A program made the translations under genes and the position numbers. Of a stretch of 64,000 nt of DNA, positions 10,678-58,072 are shown in pieces. Position 1 is the stretch's first letter; every line of letters begins with the position of its first letter. The notes below the pieces were generated by a model. The model was not told the origin of the DNA. It worked only from the letters and a program-made list of their open reading frames with translations, and searched no databases. The DNA comes from Styela clava (lineage: Eukaryota > Chordata > Ascidiacea > Stolidobranchia > Styelidae), in assembly GCF_964204865.1 (NCBI RefSeq), contig NC_135263.1:9469426-9533425 (forward strand), read 5' to 3'.

Positions 10678-12294
10678 ATGAAATTCACGTGCGCAAAAAT
10701 TCGCGGGGTTAACAACTTTTTAAATTACAGTATTAGTGACCAATATGCCGTTATTTTGTGTGCAGAAAAAGCTAGTCTAGTGAATAGCATAAATATTTTA
10801 GAGAGCTTAGCGTCTGGATTTATCGGGCGAAACTTTTTTAGACACTCGAAGCTATCTGAATTCATATGGTTGCAAATGTCCGTCATCAGCAAAATTGGAA
10901 GTGATAAAATACTTGGACCACTGGACTCTGTTCACTATACATGTTACGAAGTGGGTCATACATGGAATAGTTCTTGTCTGTTAACCTATCTTGACACGTT
11001 TCATAAAGCCTTCGCATATTCTCTAAAGCTCTATGCACCATTCTATGCGCTTAGTGCTTTGTGGAAATTTCGAAAAAAGACAACAGACAAAAGAAAATTG
11101 ATGAAAAATGCTCTTTTATCAACTTTGAGATCAAGTTTTTTTCTAGCAATGAATGGAACCTACTTCATAATTGTATTCTGCTGTTATGGTAAGATCGTTG
11201 GAAAGTATCACGGCATTGCCGGTTTTATCGTTGGAGCAGTGGCATCATTTTTAAGCATAATTTTAGAAAGAAGCTCGAGGAGAGGAATGCTTTCAATTTA
11301 CTCGTTGAATCTCGCCCTTGAAACTTTGTTTAAAATGTCTGTATCAAGAGGGTTTGTTTCTCGTATTAATGGGGGTGAAGTTTATCTATTCGCGTTCACA
11401 AATCTTGTATACATGCGCCTATTCAGATCATCGAATTTACCACCTGTCATTCAATCTGTTGTTGAAAAGATAATGGGCAAGGAAGAAACCATGACTATTT
11501 TACCAGGAGAGAGGAGGTTGTCATCTGATACTTTAGTTGACAATACCAAGCTTTCACAATCTTTCCTTCGTGCCAAAAAGCTGCACGATTTTGTCTTGAA
11601 GAACCTTAATAGGCTTGGTCCTAATACGCCCTGCTGTAAACACAACAGCAGTTGTTCCGTGTATGTAATTAAAGGGACATTAAAGTATTTTTCTCTTGGC
11701 TGTGCGTTTCATGTACTTCTTAAGTACCGGACAATACTACAATCAATACTTACCAGAAACACATCACTATTAAAAAAAGCATTTTCTGATCTTTCTTTAG
11801 CTAAATTTTTTTGTGCGTATGTGGCCCTTTTCAGAGTAGTTAATTGTTCTCTTAGATGGATGACATCCAGTGATAATCCTAAACTTTTCGGAAGTATTGC
11901 AGGCCTTATATCCGGATTCAGCTCTGTGTTTTATCCCAGTACCGGCATAGCAATGTATGTTTTTACCAAATTACTTGATATATTATGTATGAAAGCTGTC
12001 TCTGCAAACTGGTTCCCACGTATCCCCAATTTTGATATAGTGGTGTACAGCTTTAGCTTAGGAATACTATTCCATGCTGCTGTATTCGAGCCTCACAACA
12101 TTCGTCCTTCTTATTGGAGTTTTTTAAAAGCGTTGAGCGGTTATAAATTTCCATTAATGTTCAGAAAATTATTAGATAAATTTGGTACTGAAGCTTCAAG
12201 AATGTATCCAGACTTTGTTCCGGATTTAGACCCAAAATATGTGAAAACAGAAGAAGTCAAACGAGTTTTGGCGCAGTTTGGCAAATGGCGATGA
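10678..12294 (+). CDS. TMEM135-like multipass membrane protein, intronless
   Basis: Single open frame of 538 codons matching transmembrane protein 135, a peroxisomal/mitochondrial membrane protein linked to organelle dynamics and lipid metabolism. Family landmarks in order: CYEVGHTW with a following Cys (residues 89-100), the LKLYAP helix, AMNGTYF, ERSSRRGMLSIY, ALETLFKM, a Cys pair near GPNTPCCKH, RWMTSSDNPKLFGSIAGLISG, MYVFTKLLD, and the near-C-terminal RPSYWSFL and LDKFGTEAS...PDLDP blocks. Vertebrate TMEM135 has only about a dozen residues before CYE, so Met67 (10876) may be the true start; the upstream 66 residues have no family match. The vertebrate gene has many introns but this one has none, suggesting a retrocopy or wholesale intron loss. 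Coding constraint looks intact. An AATAAA lies at 12480-12485. Confidence 0.88.
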   Translation: MKFTCAKIRGVNNFLNYSISDQYAVILCAEKASLVNSINILESLASGFIGRNFFRHSKLSEFIWLQMSVISKIGSDKILGPLDSVHYTCYEVGHTWNSSCLLTYLDTFHKAFAYSLKLYAPFYALSALWKFRKKTTDKRKLMKNALLSTLRSSFFLAMNGTYFIIVFCCYGKIVGKYHGIAGFIVGAVASFLSIILERSSRRGMLSIYSLNLALETLFKMSVSRGFVSRINGGEVYLFAFTNLVYMRLFRSSNLPPVIQSVVEKIMGKEETMTILPGERRLSSDTLVDNTKLSQSFLRAKKLHDFVLKNLNRLGPNTPCCKHNSSCSVYVIKGTLKYFSLGCAFHVLLKYRTILQSILTRNTSLLKKAFSDLSLAKFFCAYVALFRVVNCSLRWMTSSDNPKLFGSIAGLISGFSSVFYPSTGIAMYVFTKLLDILCMKAVSANWFPRIPNFDIVVYSFSLGILFHAAVFEPHNIRPSYWSFLKALSGYKFPLMFRKLLDKFGTEASRMYPDFVPDLDPKYVKTEEVKRVLAQFGKWR

Positions 12295-46148: not shown

Positions 46149-46871
46149 ATGGCTAGTAGGCTGAAAACATGTTACAGGAATGTTCTACCACCATCTTGCA
46201 TTCCATTTACATCTGACAAAGGTAAAAAATATTTTAAGGAAGCTTTGCCAACGGGTCACATGAACTGCTACTTTGTGATCGGTTCTCAGTATAAAACACA
46301 AGAAGAACCTGGTGGTTATAGCGGTTTATCATCTCTTGTAATGGTTCTTAATGCATTTCATATTGACCCTGGAATTGTTTGGAAATGGCCATTTCGTTGG
46401 TACCATGAGGATATGTTGCATTGCTGTACTCCTCTTGAGGAAATAAGGAAAAATGGCATTTCTATTGAGAACCTGCTGCGTTTGGCAAGATGTAATAACC
46501 TTGAAGGCCATGTTAAACGGTTTTCCGTTGAATCCAACATTGATGAATTTAGAGATGTAATCAAAAATGTAACACTGAAAGAAGATGTAGCTATGATTTT
46601 ATCATACAATCGTTCTACTCTTGGGCAGATAGGATCTGGCCATTTGTCACCAATTGGAGGCTACAATCCTATCGAAGACAAGGTTCTTATCTTGGATGTT
46701 GAAAGGTTTAAATATCCACCACATTGGGTTTGTTTGCATGATTTATGGAATGCCATTAAGAGCATAGATGAATCGACAGGACTTCCTCATGGATATGTGA
46801 AACTGTGGAGGGCTGATACCATCATAGGGGAGAAATTATCCTGCAATTGTTTGGAAAGAAAGAAATTTTAA
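46149..46871 (+). CDS. Phytochelatin synthase paralogue, catalytic domain only, Cys to Ser at the nucleophile
   Basis: Intronless 240-residue protein covering only the N-terminal catalytic domain of phytochelatin synthase, the papain-fold dipeptidyl transpeptidase that makes metal-binding phytochelatins from glutathione. Landmarks: FTSDKGKKYFKEAL, HMNCYF, TQEEPGGYSGLSSLVMVLN, IDPGIVWKWPFRWYHE, HCCTPLEEI, GHLSPIGGY and LDVERFKYPPHW. The family nucleophile sits in PxYCGL; here it is Ser58 (codon AGC at 46320-46322), with one extra Gly before it. His165 and Asp183 of the triad remain. The protein stops after the catalytic domain, where the downstream paralogue runs on for over 200 residues; no C-terminal domain remnant is readable downstream. 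The frame is intact, so it is not an obvious pseudogene. It probably lacks thiol transpeptidase activity; a regulatory or Ser-based role is speculation. Confidence 0.9.
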   Translation: MASRLKTCYRNVLPPSCIPFTSDKGKKYFKEALPTGHMNCYFVIGSQYKTQEEPGGYSGLSSLVMVLNAFHIDPGIVWKWPFRWYHEDMLHCCTPLEEIRKNGISIENLLRLARCNNLEGHVKRFSVESNIDEFRDVIKNVTLKEDVAMILSYNRSTLGQIGSGHLSPIGGYNPIEDKVLILDVERFKYPPHWVCLHDLWNAIKSIDESTGLPHGYVKLWRADTIIGEKLSCNCLERKKF

Positions 46872-47813
46872 ACTGGATCTAGTAGATCTTAAACTATGAA
46901 CATATTAGGTTTTTTGAAAATGAATTGAATAATTAGATTAGAGAGTCTAATTATTCAAACCTTTATTAAATGTTAGAAATTTCATTGAAAGTCTGGTTAC
47001 CTTGCCTTGTTCATGTGTAACCTACAACCTCACTTTTGCATTTTATTATATTTATCAATTTTTATAAGAATCTATTAATATGCGGGTTCGTACATAATTA
47101 GGTCATGATAAGTTATGGAACATAATATATTTCATCTTGTATGCTATTGTATATGACTGGGTGATTTGTAGTTTTTCAAATCTTGCCTTTCTGTTCTCAA
47201 TGTTTTTATTATTATTTCCACCTCTGGTAAATATTTACAAGTTTCTGACACCAAACTGTTAATTGCAGTTCTTACTACCTCAATCGAAAAATTTTAAAAA
47301 GCTAAATAATACAACAGCAATAAGAATTATTGATATTGGAAATGTGACTTGAAAATATCAGCAAGTGTTTCATGTGAATTTCCCAAGGATATTCTAAGTT
47401 ATTTTTATACACTTCTGTAATGCCCAATTTAACTCTTAACTCAATCATAACTGTTATTTCCTATTCATGTCAACTAATCCGAACATTGTTCATGAATTAG
47501 ATTCTAGCACGAAAATTCTACTTCCCTATTTATAATACACCAGGTGTTGACCTCTGTATTATTTGTATATATGTTTTCTGTTATAAGAGTTTGTAGTGGA
47601 GTGTGTAATGATTGACGAGTCGACATATGCCATTCTTGCATCATTTTTTATAATAACTGTTATTAAATTATTCAAAGTTATCGATTTCATTTATTCTATT
47701 TTTTAGGAAAATTTGAATTTGTTTCTAACTATAGTTGATACATATTCATGTAACTATGCTGAATAAAATAACATTTGCATGTGGCCAAGGTTGAACAGCC
47801 TGTGGTTTGAACT
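46872..47813. other. Spacer between the two phytochelatin synthase genes
   Basis: 942 bases of AT-rich sequence without a readable remnant of a phytochelatin synthase C-terminal domain. Holds the 3' flank of the first gene and presumably the promoter of the second. Confidence 0.5.
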
Positions 47814-49238
47814 ATGATGGCTGCTACTGCGAAGAAAACATTTTACAGGCGAGTTTTGCCTGACATCTGTACCGCATTTGCATCTGAAAGAGGCAAGCAA
47901 TTGTTCAAAACTGCTCTTGCCACTGAGCACATGAACTGTTACTTTCCACTTGCTAGTCAGTTCAGAACACAAGAAGAACCAGCATACTGTGGTCTCTCAT
48001 CTCTTGTCATGGTTCTTAATTCTCTTGCAGTCGATCCAGGTGTGGTTTGGAAAGGGGTTTTCCGTTGGTATCATGAAGACATGCTTGATTGTTGTTCTCC
48101 CCTAGAAGAAATTAGGAAAATAGGTGTTCCTATGGACAACCTGATGTGTTTGGCACTGTGTAATCAACTTGACGGGGAACTAAAACGGGTGTCTGACACT
48201 ATGAATATTTCAGAATTCAGAGAGGATGTGAAAAATGCCACAAAAAGCACCAAAATAGCTATCATAGTATCATATGGAAGAGGGGTTTTAGGTCAAACTG
48301 GCACAGGACATTTCTCTCCTATTGGTGGATACAATTCACAGGAAGATATGGTACTTGTTATGGATGTGGCAAGATTCAAGTATCCTCCATATTGGGTTCC
48401 TTTGACAAAATTATGGGAAGCTATGCTGACTAGAGATGTAGAGACAGGACTTTATCGTGGATACATGGTTCTATGGAGGGCTGATGAAGGAGATATATCC
48501 AGCCAACCACTGTTAATTTTCAAAATTGCCCAAGGCCTGAATGCCTTTAAACCGATACTTAGAGGCTCTGGCAGTTTCTTTTTAAAAATCAAGTCATTTC
48601 TCATGGAGAGAGTAAAAGAACAAAATGACAAAGATATTCTGCGAATGATTATCACAACTTTGCTTGATCAGTCATACAAGCATACAGAGAGTAATGATGC
48701 AAGAGATTCTCCGAACCTTTTGTCAGTGCGAGCCACTGATGACGAAATAAAAAACTCATTTCCCAATCATGCTAAGGCAATAGGTAAGTTGATCGGGGCA
48801 ATTAATGAAACACCTTTATATAAAAAAATTGTGCAGCTTTTCCCAAAAGGAATTTGTTGCAGGCAAGCGTTATTCATAACCGAAAATGGAGAAGATATGG
48901 ATGACTATTGCCAAAATAATGATTGTGTTATATGCTTGCCTCATTTTTTGACAGTATTTCTGTTATCTTTTCCGACGGACGATGTAACACGTTACGAGGG
49001 TTGTAGCAAGAATTCAACAAAGAATACGAATGTTGTGGAAGGAACCTATCATGCCTTTTTGAAAAAAATGATCAATTCACAACTGGTGGATGGTGGCTGT
49101 GGTTTGTGTGGAAATGTGACAAAAGAACAGGAAGAAGGTCATGTATTATTAGTCAACGAAATTACCCAACTGAGAAGACAGTTTGCTGCTCTGATTAATT
49201 TGGAGTTGCAATCAAATAAGTCCAGCCATGGATCATAG
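47814..49238 (+). CDS. Phytochelatin synthase (glutathione gamma-glutamylcysteinyltransferase), full length
   Basis: Intronless 474-residue enzyme that joins gamma-Glu-Cys units from glutathione into phytochelatins for heavy-metal binding, acting in the cytosol. N-terminal catalytic domain (about 10-225) has the complete triad: Cys59 in EEPAYCGLSSL, His166 in GHFSPIGGY and Asp184 in MDVARFKYPPYW. DCCSPLEEI carries the conserved CC pair (93-94). The C-terminal half (about 226-474) is the metal-responsive domain, with Cys clusters in CQNNDCVIC and GGCGLCGN; these are plausible metal-sensing sites. The frame is in tandem, same strand, 942 bases after a catalytic-Cys-less paralogue. ATG doublet at the start: either Met is possible. 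Confident by family motifs; enzyme activity is inferred, not shown. Confidence 0.95.
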   Translation: MMAATAKKTFYRRVLPDICTAFASERGKQLFKTALATEHMNCYFPLASQFRTQEEPAYCGLSSLVMVLNSLAVDPGVVWKGVFRWYHEDMLDCCSPLEEIRKIGVPMDNLMCLALCNQLDGELKRVSDTMNISEFREDVKNATKSTKIAIIVSYGRGVLGQTGTGHFSPIGGYNSQEDMVLVMDVARFKYPPYWVPLTKLWEAMLTRDVETGLYRGYMVLWRADEGDISSQPLLIFKIAQGLNAFKPILRGSGSFFLKIKSFLMERVKEQNDKDILRMIITTLLDQSYKHTESNDARDSPNLLSVRATDDEIKNSFPNHAKAIGKLIGAINETPLYKKIVQLFPKGICCRQALFITENGEDMDDYCQNNDCVICLPHFLTVFLLSFPTDDVTRYEGCSKNSTKNTNVVEGTYHAFLKKMINSQLVDGGCGLCGNVTKEQEEGHVLLVNEITQLRRQFAALINLELQSNKSSHGS

Positions 49239-53430: not shown

Positions 53431-56400
53431 TTAGGAGTAGCGGGGTATGAAAGACTGAGTATATACAGTAAAATGTTCATATTTTTGAGGATAGTCTTTT
53501 TGCCATCTAGGAGCATTTCGAGCACGATTCGAACGTCGGGGCATCCATTCAGGTGACGTGTCAACATCTATGTCAGCGTCCGTAGGCCATGAAGGATATT
53601 CCACTCCTGCTTTTGTTGGCGGGCTGTTAGGATTTGTGACTTCAGCTTGTGTTTTGTGATCGTTGCCTTCGATCGGTTCGTCGTGTTCCCCCGATGGTGT
53701 GACGTCGTTTCCAAAAAGGCTCTTTCCTCGTGTATTGTCTTCGAGCAGGTGGGAGCTTATAGAGGATGTCGATGACGCATCGCGGTTGAGGTCCAATAAC
53801 GGGTGTGTATTTACGCAGATTTCTGTTACGAAGTGTCACTCTTCCGGATCCGTCGACTTTTACGGCGTATCGATCAAATGGCCTAACTTTAATTATCAGT
53901 CCCGTTTTGTCCCATTTTTTCGGTTCTGGGCCGATCTGATTTTGAATCCTTACGTGATCTCCCTTTTTGTGTGTTCCGACCATCTTTCTGCCGATCTCAT
54001 ATGCCGGTTACGAAGAGCTTCCTCTTTGGCTGCCAAAGTTTCACGCCAAGTGTTGTGCGGTTTATATCTTCCAAGAAGAATAGGATGAAGTCTTTAATTG
54101 CGCGCCCGAACACGCACATTGCTGGTGACATTTTGGTGTCCGGGTCCGGTGCGTTTCGGTATTGCAGGATGGCCCGCTGAAAGGAGTCTGTGTCCAGTTC
54201 GCCGTTAGGCCCAGTGTTGTTGCAAATAAGTCGTTTGACAGTTTTTACTCCGTCTTCTGCACGGCAGTTACTGTGTGGGAATGCCACCGATGATAGGCTG
54301 TGATGTAAGCCCCATTCTTTCAAAAACTTCTGTGTTGCAACGGAGGTGAATTCAGGTCCTCCGTCAGAAGCCAGTTCATCTGCAATACCAAATGTCACGA
54401 ATGTTCGTCGTAGGCTGCTGATAAGTTCTGTCGCACCACCCGCACCACCCTTTCGACTATTGGCCAATTGGAGTAGCGATCAACGATAACTAGGTAATTG
54501 ACACCTTTGTAGTGGAAAAAATCGGCACAAATGCATTGAATCGGATAAGATGGTGTATATGGAGATGTAGGCGGAGCGCATGGCTGTGATGGAGCCATGC
54601 GATTGCATTCTCGGCACTTGTTGCGTGTTGTTAAGATCGCTGCTGTAATTCCTGGCCAGAACACGGATGCTTCTGCCCTTGAGGTCATTGATGAAACTCC
54701 TTGGTGTGCGGCGTGAAGGGCACGTAGAACGTCTCCGCGTAACGTGGGGGGGGGGGGGGGTTGGGTGACGATTCGGTCTTTGTAAATTATCACCCCGTCC
54801 ACAGTGTAGAGGTCGTTCCTGAATCTGTAATACTCTCGTAGCGGTGTTGGAAGTTCAGTTCGCTTATCTGGCATTCCCGACTCAATTATTTCGACTAATT
54901 TTTTGTTCATGTGATCGTCGCTAGCAGTGGCCAACTTTACCTTTTCCCATGTGACAGTTTGCAGAGCAGCAATTGATGAAGCTGCTGCCTCCATGATTGA
55001 GGTCTCAAAAGTGCTCTTGTGATTCACGGTAGTGCGAACTTTCTCCATTAAGGTTGATGAAAAAATCGTAGAAAGCTGAGAGGTTTCGTTCACAATCGAT
55101 GCAATGTCGTCTGTAAGATGCATCATCTCAGGTTGCCCTGTGGGATGTCGAGAACAGCCGTCAGCAGCTCGGTGTTTTACGCCTGGAATGTGGATCATGC
55201 GGAACTTGTATCTTAGGGTCTTTTCCTTGAGATTACGGAGGCGTGTATTTGATATTTTGTCGAGTGACCTGTCGCCAAAAATTTTTAACAGCGGTTTGTG
55301 GTCTACGGCAATCACAAGGTCATCGCAGCCCAATACGAAGTAAATATGTTTGTCCAAGGCATCGACTACTGCAAGAGCATCTCCCTCAATTGGGGCGTAG
55401 CGTGATTCTGCACTATGAGTGAATCGACTGCCGACTAAAGTTGTTTTCCATCCACTGGGACAGCAAAACGGCTTTGAGTTTATAAGGGAAGAGCAATGCT
55501 TCTGAAAAAGCCAATACCCGATGTCGTTCTTCGACCAGTCGGTGGCGAGGCATGTTGGCTTCGTTTTGCCGAAAATCTTTACCCCTTCTTCGATCTCTTT
55601 TGCTATGGTAGTTTTTGACTCCTCAAATATACTGTTCAGGTCGTTGTCCCAAACGAATTATGATCCGGGTTTCAGCAGTTCGCGGAATGGCAGCATGCGT
55701 TTCGTCATGCTGAATGCGTAAGACACTTGGTTAATTAATGATGGCGTTTAGGAATTCCGAGCAGGGCAATTTCGAGCATTTTCCATTGTTATTTCAAACC
55801 CAGCAAATTCTACGGTATCTTCGGCAAACACGAACTTTTCCGGATTAAGTGTGATGCCATGTCTCCCACAAATATCCAGCCATTTGGCGGCTTGAAAGAA
55901 GCTTTCTTCTATGCTGTCGGACCAAAGTAGGGTGTCGTCAATGCATTTTGTTTTATTTGGAACGTCAGCCACAATTTCATCGAATCTACGCGAGTATCCG
56001 TCTCCTGAAGCAATGTAGCCTTGTGGTGCAGTGCGGTACCGGTAGCGGCCCCAGGTTGTGATGAAGGTAGTCAAGTGCCGGTCTTCCTCTCGTATATGTA
56101 CACTCTAATACCCGTTCCACGCATCAAACATGGTCTTCTTTTTGCCGCTTGGGACTGAGCGTGCTTGATGGAATGGGGACTGCGTGTGGTGGGTCTCCCT
56201 GGTGACGTAGGCGTTCAAGGGTTGCAGATCCACTGTGCGACGTGGTTTCCCATTCTTTTTTGCACAGACTACCATTCGGTGACACCAAGTGACTGGATCG
56301 CCAATAGGAACTGTTTCTATCACGCCAAGTCTGACATCCTGGTCGAGTCCAGCCTTCACTTCGTCCTGCCAGTGCAATGGGACCGGTACAGGGGTGTGAT

Positions 56401-58072
56401 GAGCAACTGGGTCGGCGTCTGATTTGATCATCAGTTTCATTGGCGGCCCTTCCATCATGGGCAAAGGCTGGTGTTCACACGTATTAAACGTGCTGGCTCG
56501 GTAGTGTTCAATGAAAAAGTTCTTAAGCTGTGCGAGGTTGTTTGTTGTGGCTAGAAATGGGAGTTTGGTGGGCAACGTAGGAGGTAGTTGGCGGCGAGGA
56601 CAATCACATTGCTTTTGTGTCTGGGCGCTTGTGTGTTTTGCTTCCCTGTTGCTATTTGCGACGGATTTGTCCAGTGAAGCCGCGCCAGACGCACAATAGA
56701 TGCTTTGTTTTATGTCGCCTATTTTGGGAAAGTTGTTAGAGATCATTCCCAAGGCGGTGCAAGCTTCCCTGCTGATGAACATTTTATCGGTGCTGTCAGT
56801 AACGTATGTTATATGCCTAGTTTCAACCGCATCGCCCCTTTCATCATTTCCAGATATTCGCAGGATCGCGGCGCCAATTATGTTGATACGTTTGTTGTTC
56901 GCTGCATGCATCTTCATAATGACTGGTATGAGATCCTTGTCCTTCAGTCCACTGCGGCGGATAATCTTGATGCTCGCAAGGCAACTTTGACATCCCGTGT
57001 CGGCCATTGCCGTGACTCTGGCGACACTGCTGTTGGCCTTTAGGCAGAATCCGAGCGCTTCGTAGTCCTCTTTGACAGCTCTTATGGCAAGGCCTATGAA
57101 TGGTTGAGGTTTCGAAGGCCTCTTGGTCCATATGTCATAGACATTGTCGTATAGATGGTGATCCAGTGATATGCTTTGGCTTGGCAATCGTTTGGAATTA
57201 TTAGATCGGATTGTGCCAACGTTCGCGCTTACTGAACACATCGCATCAAAAACGGCTCCTTCGCATTCAGCATCTTTGTTTGGTTTGCTAGTTCCCGTTC
57301 TTCTGGAACTATTTTTCTTCCTGCACATGTGATCATGATGGTGTTTGAGACCGCAGTGTCCACAAGTGTGGTCATATGCCGTACATTCCGCTTGCCTGAT
57401 TTTTGGGACTGCCCTAGCGCCATGGCCGGGTTCGCCGCAGTATGAGCATTTATTTTGAACATTCCTTTTATCTCGTCTGTAGGAACTGCTACGCGCAGCT
57501 TCCGCACCCATCGAGTCGAACAGGCGTGTAGCTGATCGTTTTCCAGATTCCTTAGTTTCCACGAATAGGAAGACTTCTTCGAGTGTCATGTCCTGATTTC
57601 TGTCGCCCAAAAGATCGAGTTGTATTTCCTGATCAGCTATGCCTCGCGTGAGCACGTCCCGTAAGATAGCATCTGTATAATTGACAGTTGCTTCGCAAGA
57701 AGGGCATTTAATCTGGAATTTGCATATTCCGGCTTGTCCACGTAGGCGGGCGCCAAAAGATCGGACAGTTTCATCTCTGTCCTGTCGCATGTTATGCAAT
57801 GCCACTCTTGCAACCATTGTGTTTTCTTCGCGGACTGCCAGTAGTTTTATGGCAGCTACAACGTCATTTTCTGGTTTACCTGCCAGACTGCCACCCGCTG
57901 CCTGCGTGATGTCTTTTCGAAGGGCTTCGTCGCAGCATTCCAGTAGCTGCATTACTCTATCGCTACCCTCTATTTTCGTTGCGTCAACATATTCCTTCCA
58001 TCTCGTTTCAAAGTATGCCCATTCCTCTGATGATCCAGCCATGGTGATTGTTGGCCTACGCACTTTTTCCAC
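53431..58072 (-). pseudogene. gag-pol of the LTR element, interrupted
   Basis: The first open stretch (58072-56105, 655 codons) covers gag with a CSYCGEPGH zinc knuckle and a second Cys/His cluster, the aspartic protease (ADTGCQ) and the start of RT (TVDLQPLN). Then come an in-frame TAG at the NGY position (56105), more RT with CIDD in place of the YxDD motif (open 56074-55748), and two further in-frame TAA stops near 55750 and 55660. RNase H (VDHKPLL), the integrase HHCC finger (HAAHQ...CREC) and first catalytic Asp (ADFFHYKG) are in the same frame (55357-54395). A frameshift near 54440 precedes the SDGGPEF integrase motif (54467-53997), and further shifts lead to the C-terminal frames (53983-53642, 53796-53431). 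The CIDD residue and stops make it inactive as it stands. Confidence 0.9.
54746..54760 (+). repeat. Homopolymer of 15 G
   Basis: A G15 run within the integrase region of the LTR element (C run on its coding strand, encoding prolines in a PPPPPP stretch). Prone to sequencing and polymerase slippage. Confidence 0.9.

Follow-up and report, generated by a model that had tools for sequence, protein, structure and literature searches.

Eukaryotic phytochelatin synthases (PCSs) of the AtPCS1 type (PF05023, peptidase family C83) combine an N-terminal domain, which carries a Cys-His-Asp triad and an oxyanion-hole Gln, with a variable C-terminal half, whereas prokaryotic half-molecules such as Nostoc Alr0975 (PDB 2BTW/2BU3) have a single N-domain architecture. 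In AtPCS1, the second substrate site is described as shaped by Gln50, Glu52, Tyr55, Arg152, Gln157, Phe184, Lys185, and Tyr186, phosphorylated Thr49 has been hypothesised to touch Arg183, and Cd binding by the C56A mutant is reported at the wild-type level (PMC3855540), suggesting that loss of the nucleophile does not prevent a PCS from binding metal. Substitution of triad residues, on the other hand, is reported to abolish activity (PMC11314372). Reports on the C-terminal half are divided: removal of 100 C-terminal residues from the schistosome enzyme abolished yeast tolerance (PMC3101182), whereas a later paper describes this domain as seemingly dispensable and gives the recombinant protein as a homodimer, with the comment 'data not shown' (PMC3561135). 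The 26-kD SrPCS1, in which the triad is present, conferred cadmium tolerance on yeast (PMC2812823), indicating that much of the C half is dispensable for N-domain activity. In these sources, natural PCS products devoid of catalytic residues are splice forms, namely Schistosoma SmPCS-2 (PMC3101182) and Sesbania SrPCS2 and SrPCS4 (PMC2812823), which lack the full triad and gave no cadmium tolerance in yeast. Replacement of the nucleophile Cys by Ser with retention of His is known from silicateins and other papain-fold proteins (PMC6233156, PMC10318531), which belong to families different from PCS, and the Ser cases described in the text consulted from PMC10318531 include no named PCS. In the open-access literature searched, no paper combined 'phytochelatin synthase' with 'pseudoenzyme', and a nucleophile-less PCS gene appeared in no title among the matches listed.

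A tandem pair of PCS genes was analysed in a 64,000-nt stretch of DNA (hereafter the window; C18:9469426-9533425, GC 35.5%) from a 376.6-Mb assembly of 379 contigs. The upstream gene (46149..46871, + strand), hereafter the short copy, is a single open frame of 240 aa that runs from ATG to TAA, with no stop in its 240 codons and no frameshift relative to its full-length neighbour, and consists of a nucleophile-less N-terminal PCS domain only. PF05023 matches residues 9-216 over profile positions 2-210 of 210 (Pfam, E 4.9e-73), with a bit score of 245 against a cut-off of 24.9, and a chance ORF was rejected on this E value. The full copy lies 942 bp downstream on the same strand (47814..49238, +) and is a single open frame of 474 aa with the triad Cys59-His166-Asp184, in which Cys59 is encoded by TGT (47988..47990, +); its C-terminal half (48489..49238, +) is found in this copy only, with a decayed remnant beside a third copy on contig C4. 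The two proteins share 133 of 222 residues in a pairwise alignment (60%), and the DNA agrees at 68% of bases across the domain. The blastn alignment of the copies stops at 46817, and the 17-residue tail of the short copy (46818..46871, +), which replaces the start of the C-terminal half, is unrelated. A hidden C-terminal exon was rejected, as a tblastn search of the window with the neighbour's 250-residue C half detected no remnant on the 3' side of the short ORF, and a search of the organism's own genome with the same query returned the full copy and the C4 remnant. An in-frame stop lies 8 codons 5' of the short copy's ATG, and both proteins align from near their start codons. About 40 bp past the stop of the short copy, an inverted repeat (46913-46970, 25-nt arms, 80% complementarity) overlaps an ATTAAA poly(A)-like signal. 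Metal-response-element cores, of which the window has 22, were uninformative and are absent from 43.5 to 49.3 kb; an NCBIfam search with three window proteins gave no match, and no relatives were found in the viral contigs and phages searched.

The window has the look of animal DNA and also contains pieces of a PF00860 permease, which we take to be SLC23-type, and a TMEM135-like gene (10678-12294, +) with one 538-codon open frame, showing that PCS genes are not alone in this region in having long single open frames. Retroelement remains occupy 53431-58072 (- strand), with an integrase zinc-binding domain above its cut-off and an integrase core below its own. Elsewhere in the genome, a cellulose-synthase match (C9:16177457-16177855, E 2.2e-4) and a GH6 match (C9:16179895-16180164, E 1.5e-6) lie on one strand, separated by about 2 kb. 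Linkage of cellulose synthase to GH6 in an animal is a hallmark of tunicates, and the genome is therefore probably that of a tunicate.

In the short copy, Ser58 (AGC, 46320..46322, +) stands in the column of the nucleophile Cys, for which the neighbour has TGT. Between the oxyanion-hole Gln and this position, Gly55-Gly56 (GGT GGT, 46311..46316, +) provides one residue more than the neighbour's Ala, the loop reading Q51-E-E-P-G-G-Y-S58 in the short copy and Q53-E-E-P-A-Y-C59 in the full copy. By residue alignment, the triad His165 (46641..46643, +) and Asp183 (46695..46697, +) are kept, giving Ser58-His165-Asp183 in place of the Cys-His-Asp triad of the PF05023 family. The CC pair (Cys92, Cys93) is intact, one Cys of the CxxxC pair has become Arg111, and Ala is replaced by Glu185 two residues past the triad Asp. 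When AtPCS1 numbering was matched to the short copy in this analysis, with residue roles as given in PMC3855540, 15 of the 17 residues checked were identical, the exceptions being Cys56 (Ser58) and the one CxxxC Cys (Arg111). The substrate-site-related residues together with His162 and Asp180 are identical at 12/12 positions (Thr49, Gln50, Glu52, Tyr55, Arg152, Gln157, His162, Asp180, Arg183, Phe184, Lys185, and Tyr186), including all five of a second-substrate set (Gln50, Tyr55, Arg152, Lys185, Tyr186). The preliminary description had reported a 240-codon PCS frame without a stop that keeps the fold landmarks, the catalytic His and Asp, and the CC pair, but has Ser58 with one extra residue at the nucleophile and no C-terminal half; the frame boundaries proved exact, and each of these features is confirmed by the profile, tblastn, and alignment results, the loop change also by comparison with bacterial sequences.

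The short copy therefore resembles AtPCS1-type enzymes in its complete N domain, triad His and Asp, oxyanion Gln, second-site Arg, Lys, and Tyr, and CC pair, and differs in its Ser, the loop longer by one residue, the lost CxxxC Cys, and the missing C half. The last feature is shared with prokaryotic half-molecules, and the short copy matches five distinct Alr0975 chain sequences with E values of 1.4e-26 to 2.9e-27; native Alr0975, in contrast, has Cys and no extra residue. One chain, 6tjl, aligned with Ser in the nucleophile column, presumably as an engineered mutant. Like the splice forms, the short copy is a natural product that lacks a catalytic residue, but those forms arise by splicing and have lost large parts, whereas the short copy is a gene of its own whose domain, complete in other respects, carries a replacement. 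In bacterial PCSs, the loop ends in P-x-aromatic-Cys-Gly and has a fixed length in 24/24 rows and the extra residue in 0/24; these rows represent 23 distinct records, two rows coming from plasmids (4 of the 15 plasmid records found were taken) and 22 from a genome scan whose search patterns did not include the nucleophile loop. Two more distant plasmid rows (L003, L004), which entered one alignment only, also have Cys in this column. Three bacterial eukaryote-like PCS frames (L025, L016, and L026; 231, 267, and 246 aa) have little or no C half, and all have Cys.

Comparison of the short and full copies by NG86 gave dS 1.27, dN 0.32, and dN/dS 0.25, and GY94 gave an omega of 0.13 over 216 codons, with values of 1 and 0.5 rejected (2dlnL 87 and 37, respectively); for two equal lineages of which one evolved neutrally over its whole length, a mean omega of about 0.5 or more would be expected. 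In a 25-row tree built without the C4 copy, the two copies join (100/99) with branches of 0.71 (short) and 0.39 (full), both flagged as long. The tree and the constraint counts used 23 bacterial rows, L006 being dropped as the same record as L001. Among 68 columns invariant in these rows, 53 are kept by both copies, nine are changed in the short copy only, one in the full copy only, and five in both, a contrast that weakens to 15 short-only against 9 full-only changes in a looser set (>=80% conserved in bacteria). At positions where the full copy's residue occurs in bacteria, the short copy has changed 9/62 invariant positions against 51/108 others (p=1.3e-5), the second fraction being somewhat inflated because the full copy's residue is possibly derived at other positions; the reverse test on the full copy gave 1/54 against 38/95. 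Branch codon models (three- and four-taxon, eight runs, with five and then three bacterial rows used one at a time as outgroups) estimated a short-branch omega of 0.29-0.36, but omega=1 was rejected in 0/8 runs (2dlnL 0.6-1.7 in five outgroup runs and 0.74-1.16 in three runs), with synonymous sites near saturation, remote bacterial outgroups, and the outgroup branch at its upper bound in 5/8 runs. An omega of 1 on the short branch would require 0.17-0.19 neutral changes per site under the branch model, which ignores stops. Neutral frames simulated with substitutions only, starting from 217 codons of the full copy, stayed open at these levels in 28/4000 and 16/4000 cases (<1%), which makes a wholly neutral history unlikely, and at about 0.08 changes per site in 306/4000; a recent neutral phase of the latter extent is compatible with the open frame. 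These comparisons support past purifying selection on the domain of the short copy, apparently relaxed but present. Such constraint may predate the loss of Cys; its continuation past that loss is a tentative inference.

A useful control is provided by a third copy, which is located outside the window and does not figure in the preliminary description. In the 377-Mb genome, a six-frame search gave PF05023 matches only for the short, full, and C4 copies (three candidates, three scored), the last with a domain match at C4:15226761-15227375 (- strand) within a 233-codon frame (L028:1456-2157, -, 233 aa). Its similarity is highest to the full copy (188/230 identical residues; dS 0.38, dN 0.085). 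It keeps the Cys, with the nucleophile loop one codon shorter, but ten bacterial-invariant positions are changed, including an RW pair and the second Cys of the CC pair, and its C half is a frameshifted, gapped remnant. Its changes ignore conservation, affecting 10/61 invariant and 19/107 other positions (p=1), and the invariant/rest test is thus able to come out flat; as a null it is imperfect, its branch being shorter and its branch omega about 0.25 (omega=1 at 2dlnL 2.5-3.9). The C4 copy, too, may have been under some constraint. Relative to the full copy, its N domain differs at 85/663 bases and its C remnant at 57/207 aligned bases (p=2.6e-6), a difference to which faster evolution of the full copy's own C half could contribute. 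Strong similarity between the C4 and full copies begins just past a splice-acceptor-like TTTTTTAG (window 47700-47715), about 107 bp before the ATG of the full copy, a hint that the C4 copy derived from a processed transcript. In both the short and C4 copies, the sole indel within the aligned domain falls in the loop before the nucleophile, one being longer and the other shorter; with two cases, the shared site may be a coincidence. Since the frame of the C4 copy remains open despite the loss of invariant residues, openness of a PCS frame does not by itself demonstrate function.

These results qualify the proposal in the preliminary description that the short copy was retained after losing thiol chemistry. 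Past purifying selection and preserved substrate-site residues agree with it, whereas that selection is not placed after the Cys loss. A dN/dS near 1, named there as evidence against retention, is rejected for the pair but not for the short branch. The open frame, taken there as a sign of retention, is seldom expected from a wholly neutral branch but loses weight from the 233 codons kept open in the C4 copy. The roles put forward there, as a regulator or decoy of the full-length neighbour or through Ser chemistry, are hypothetical.

Several readings of the short copy can be weighed on this evidence. With the probability standing at about even, it would be a PCS domain retained without its nucleophile, either binding glutathione or metal-glutathione or acting as a partner of the full enzyme. 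It is also possible, with a probability well below even, that through most of its past the gene encoded an active N-domain PCS, which would account for the observed constraint, and that it lost its nucleophile recently and is drifting towards a pseudogene. The faster short branch, the nine invariant residues lost in this copy alone, the failure to reject omega=1, the simulated frames surviving about 0.08 neutral changes per site, and a sister copy on C4 whose open frame masks an ongoing loss of conserved residues are all in keeping with recent disablement. It accords less well with several separate loop changes (the extra codon, Ala to Gly, and AGC for TGT) amid intact surrounding substrate-site residues, and with an invariant/rest contrast unlike that of the C4 copy. 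It is highly improbable that the Ser reflects an error in sequencing or assembly, or that the frame is one exon of a longer gene with the Cys elsewhere: no support for either was found in the one assembly used, divergence from the neighbour (60% identity) is much too large for error, and the alignment from near the start codons, the upstream in-frame stop, and the lack of a further PCS piece nearby speak against an exon.

Ranking below recent disablement, itself placed below retention as a pseudoenzyme, is the unlikely case of an active serine enzyme, in which Ser58, His165, and Asp183 would catalyse slow acyl transfer or hydrolysis with glutathione conjugates or some other molecule as substrate, as has been proposed for certain other papain-fold proteins with Ser. 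The triad partners and the oxyanion Gln are kept, natural Ser-for-Cys papain-like families exist, two C-to-S mutant enzymes are reported as partly active, and Glu185 adds negative charge of a kind that may favour Ser function (PMC10318531). Sponge silicateins have Ser for Cys, one of them also differing just before the Ser, but the same report argues against triad catalysis in these proteins (PMC6233156). The extra residue alters the Gln-to-nucleophile spacing that is fixed in all 24 bacterial rows, which speaks against an unmodified oxyanion hole; moreover, the pocket Arg and Lys remain, and the abolition of AtPCS1 activity by triad substitutions (PMC11314372) also counts against such an enzyme.

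Under the favoured pseudoenzyme reading, an ancient PCS gene duplication would have produced two tandem copies, one of which lost its C-terminal half and its Cys nucleophile and gained one residue in the oxyanion loop. The loss of the C half need not have been fatal, given the divided evidence on its role, while the loss of Cys very probably abolished thiol chemistry. The encoded protein very probably adopts the fold of a PCS domain but would be unable to form the gamma-Glu-Cys thioester and, judging from its residues and the published AtPCS1 mutants, would not be expected to produce phytochelatins at any useful rate; it was most likely kept as a pseudoenzyme. One possible role, favoured by the preserved substrate-site residues, is to bind glutathione or Cd-bis-glutathionate without turnover; another is to pair with the full-length enzyme, which the schistosome homodimer makes conceivable. 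Either binding or pairing could tune metal sensing or phytochelatin output.

Such a gene, which encodes a separate and complete PCS domain with intact substrate-site residues and no nucleophile and is located beside the gene for the full-length enzyme, would offer a natural test of PCS roles beyond phytochelatin synthesis and of how animals control this pathway. A more far-reaching proposal, which we regard as doubtful, is that a metal-detoxifying transpeptidase gave rise in this lineage, through remodelling of the oxyanion loop, to a neighbouring sensor or partner subunit that lacks the nucleophile and is under selection, and that PCS half-domains have been remodelled repeatedly, as the C4 copy might illustrate. 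The C4 copy, with its own separate reduction to the N domain and an indel in the same loop, would, if this is true, point to repeated remodelling towards non-phytochelatin functions.
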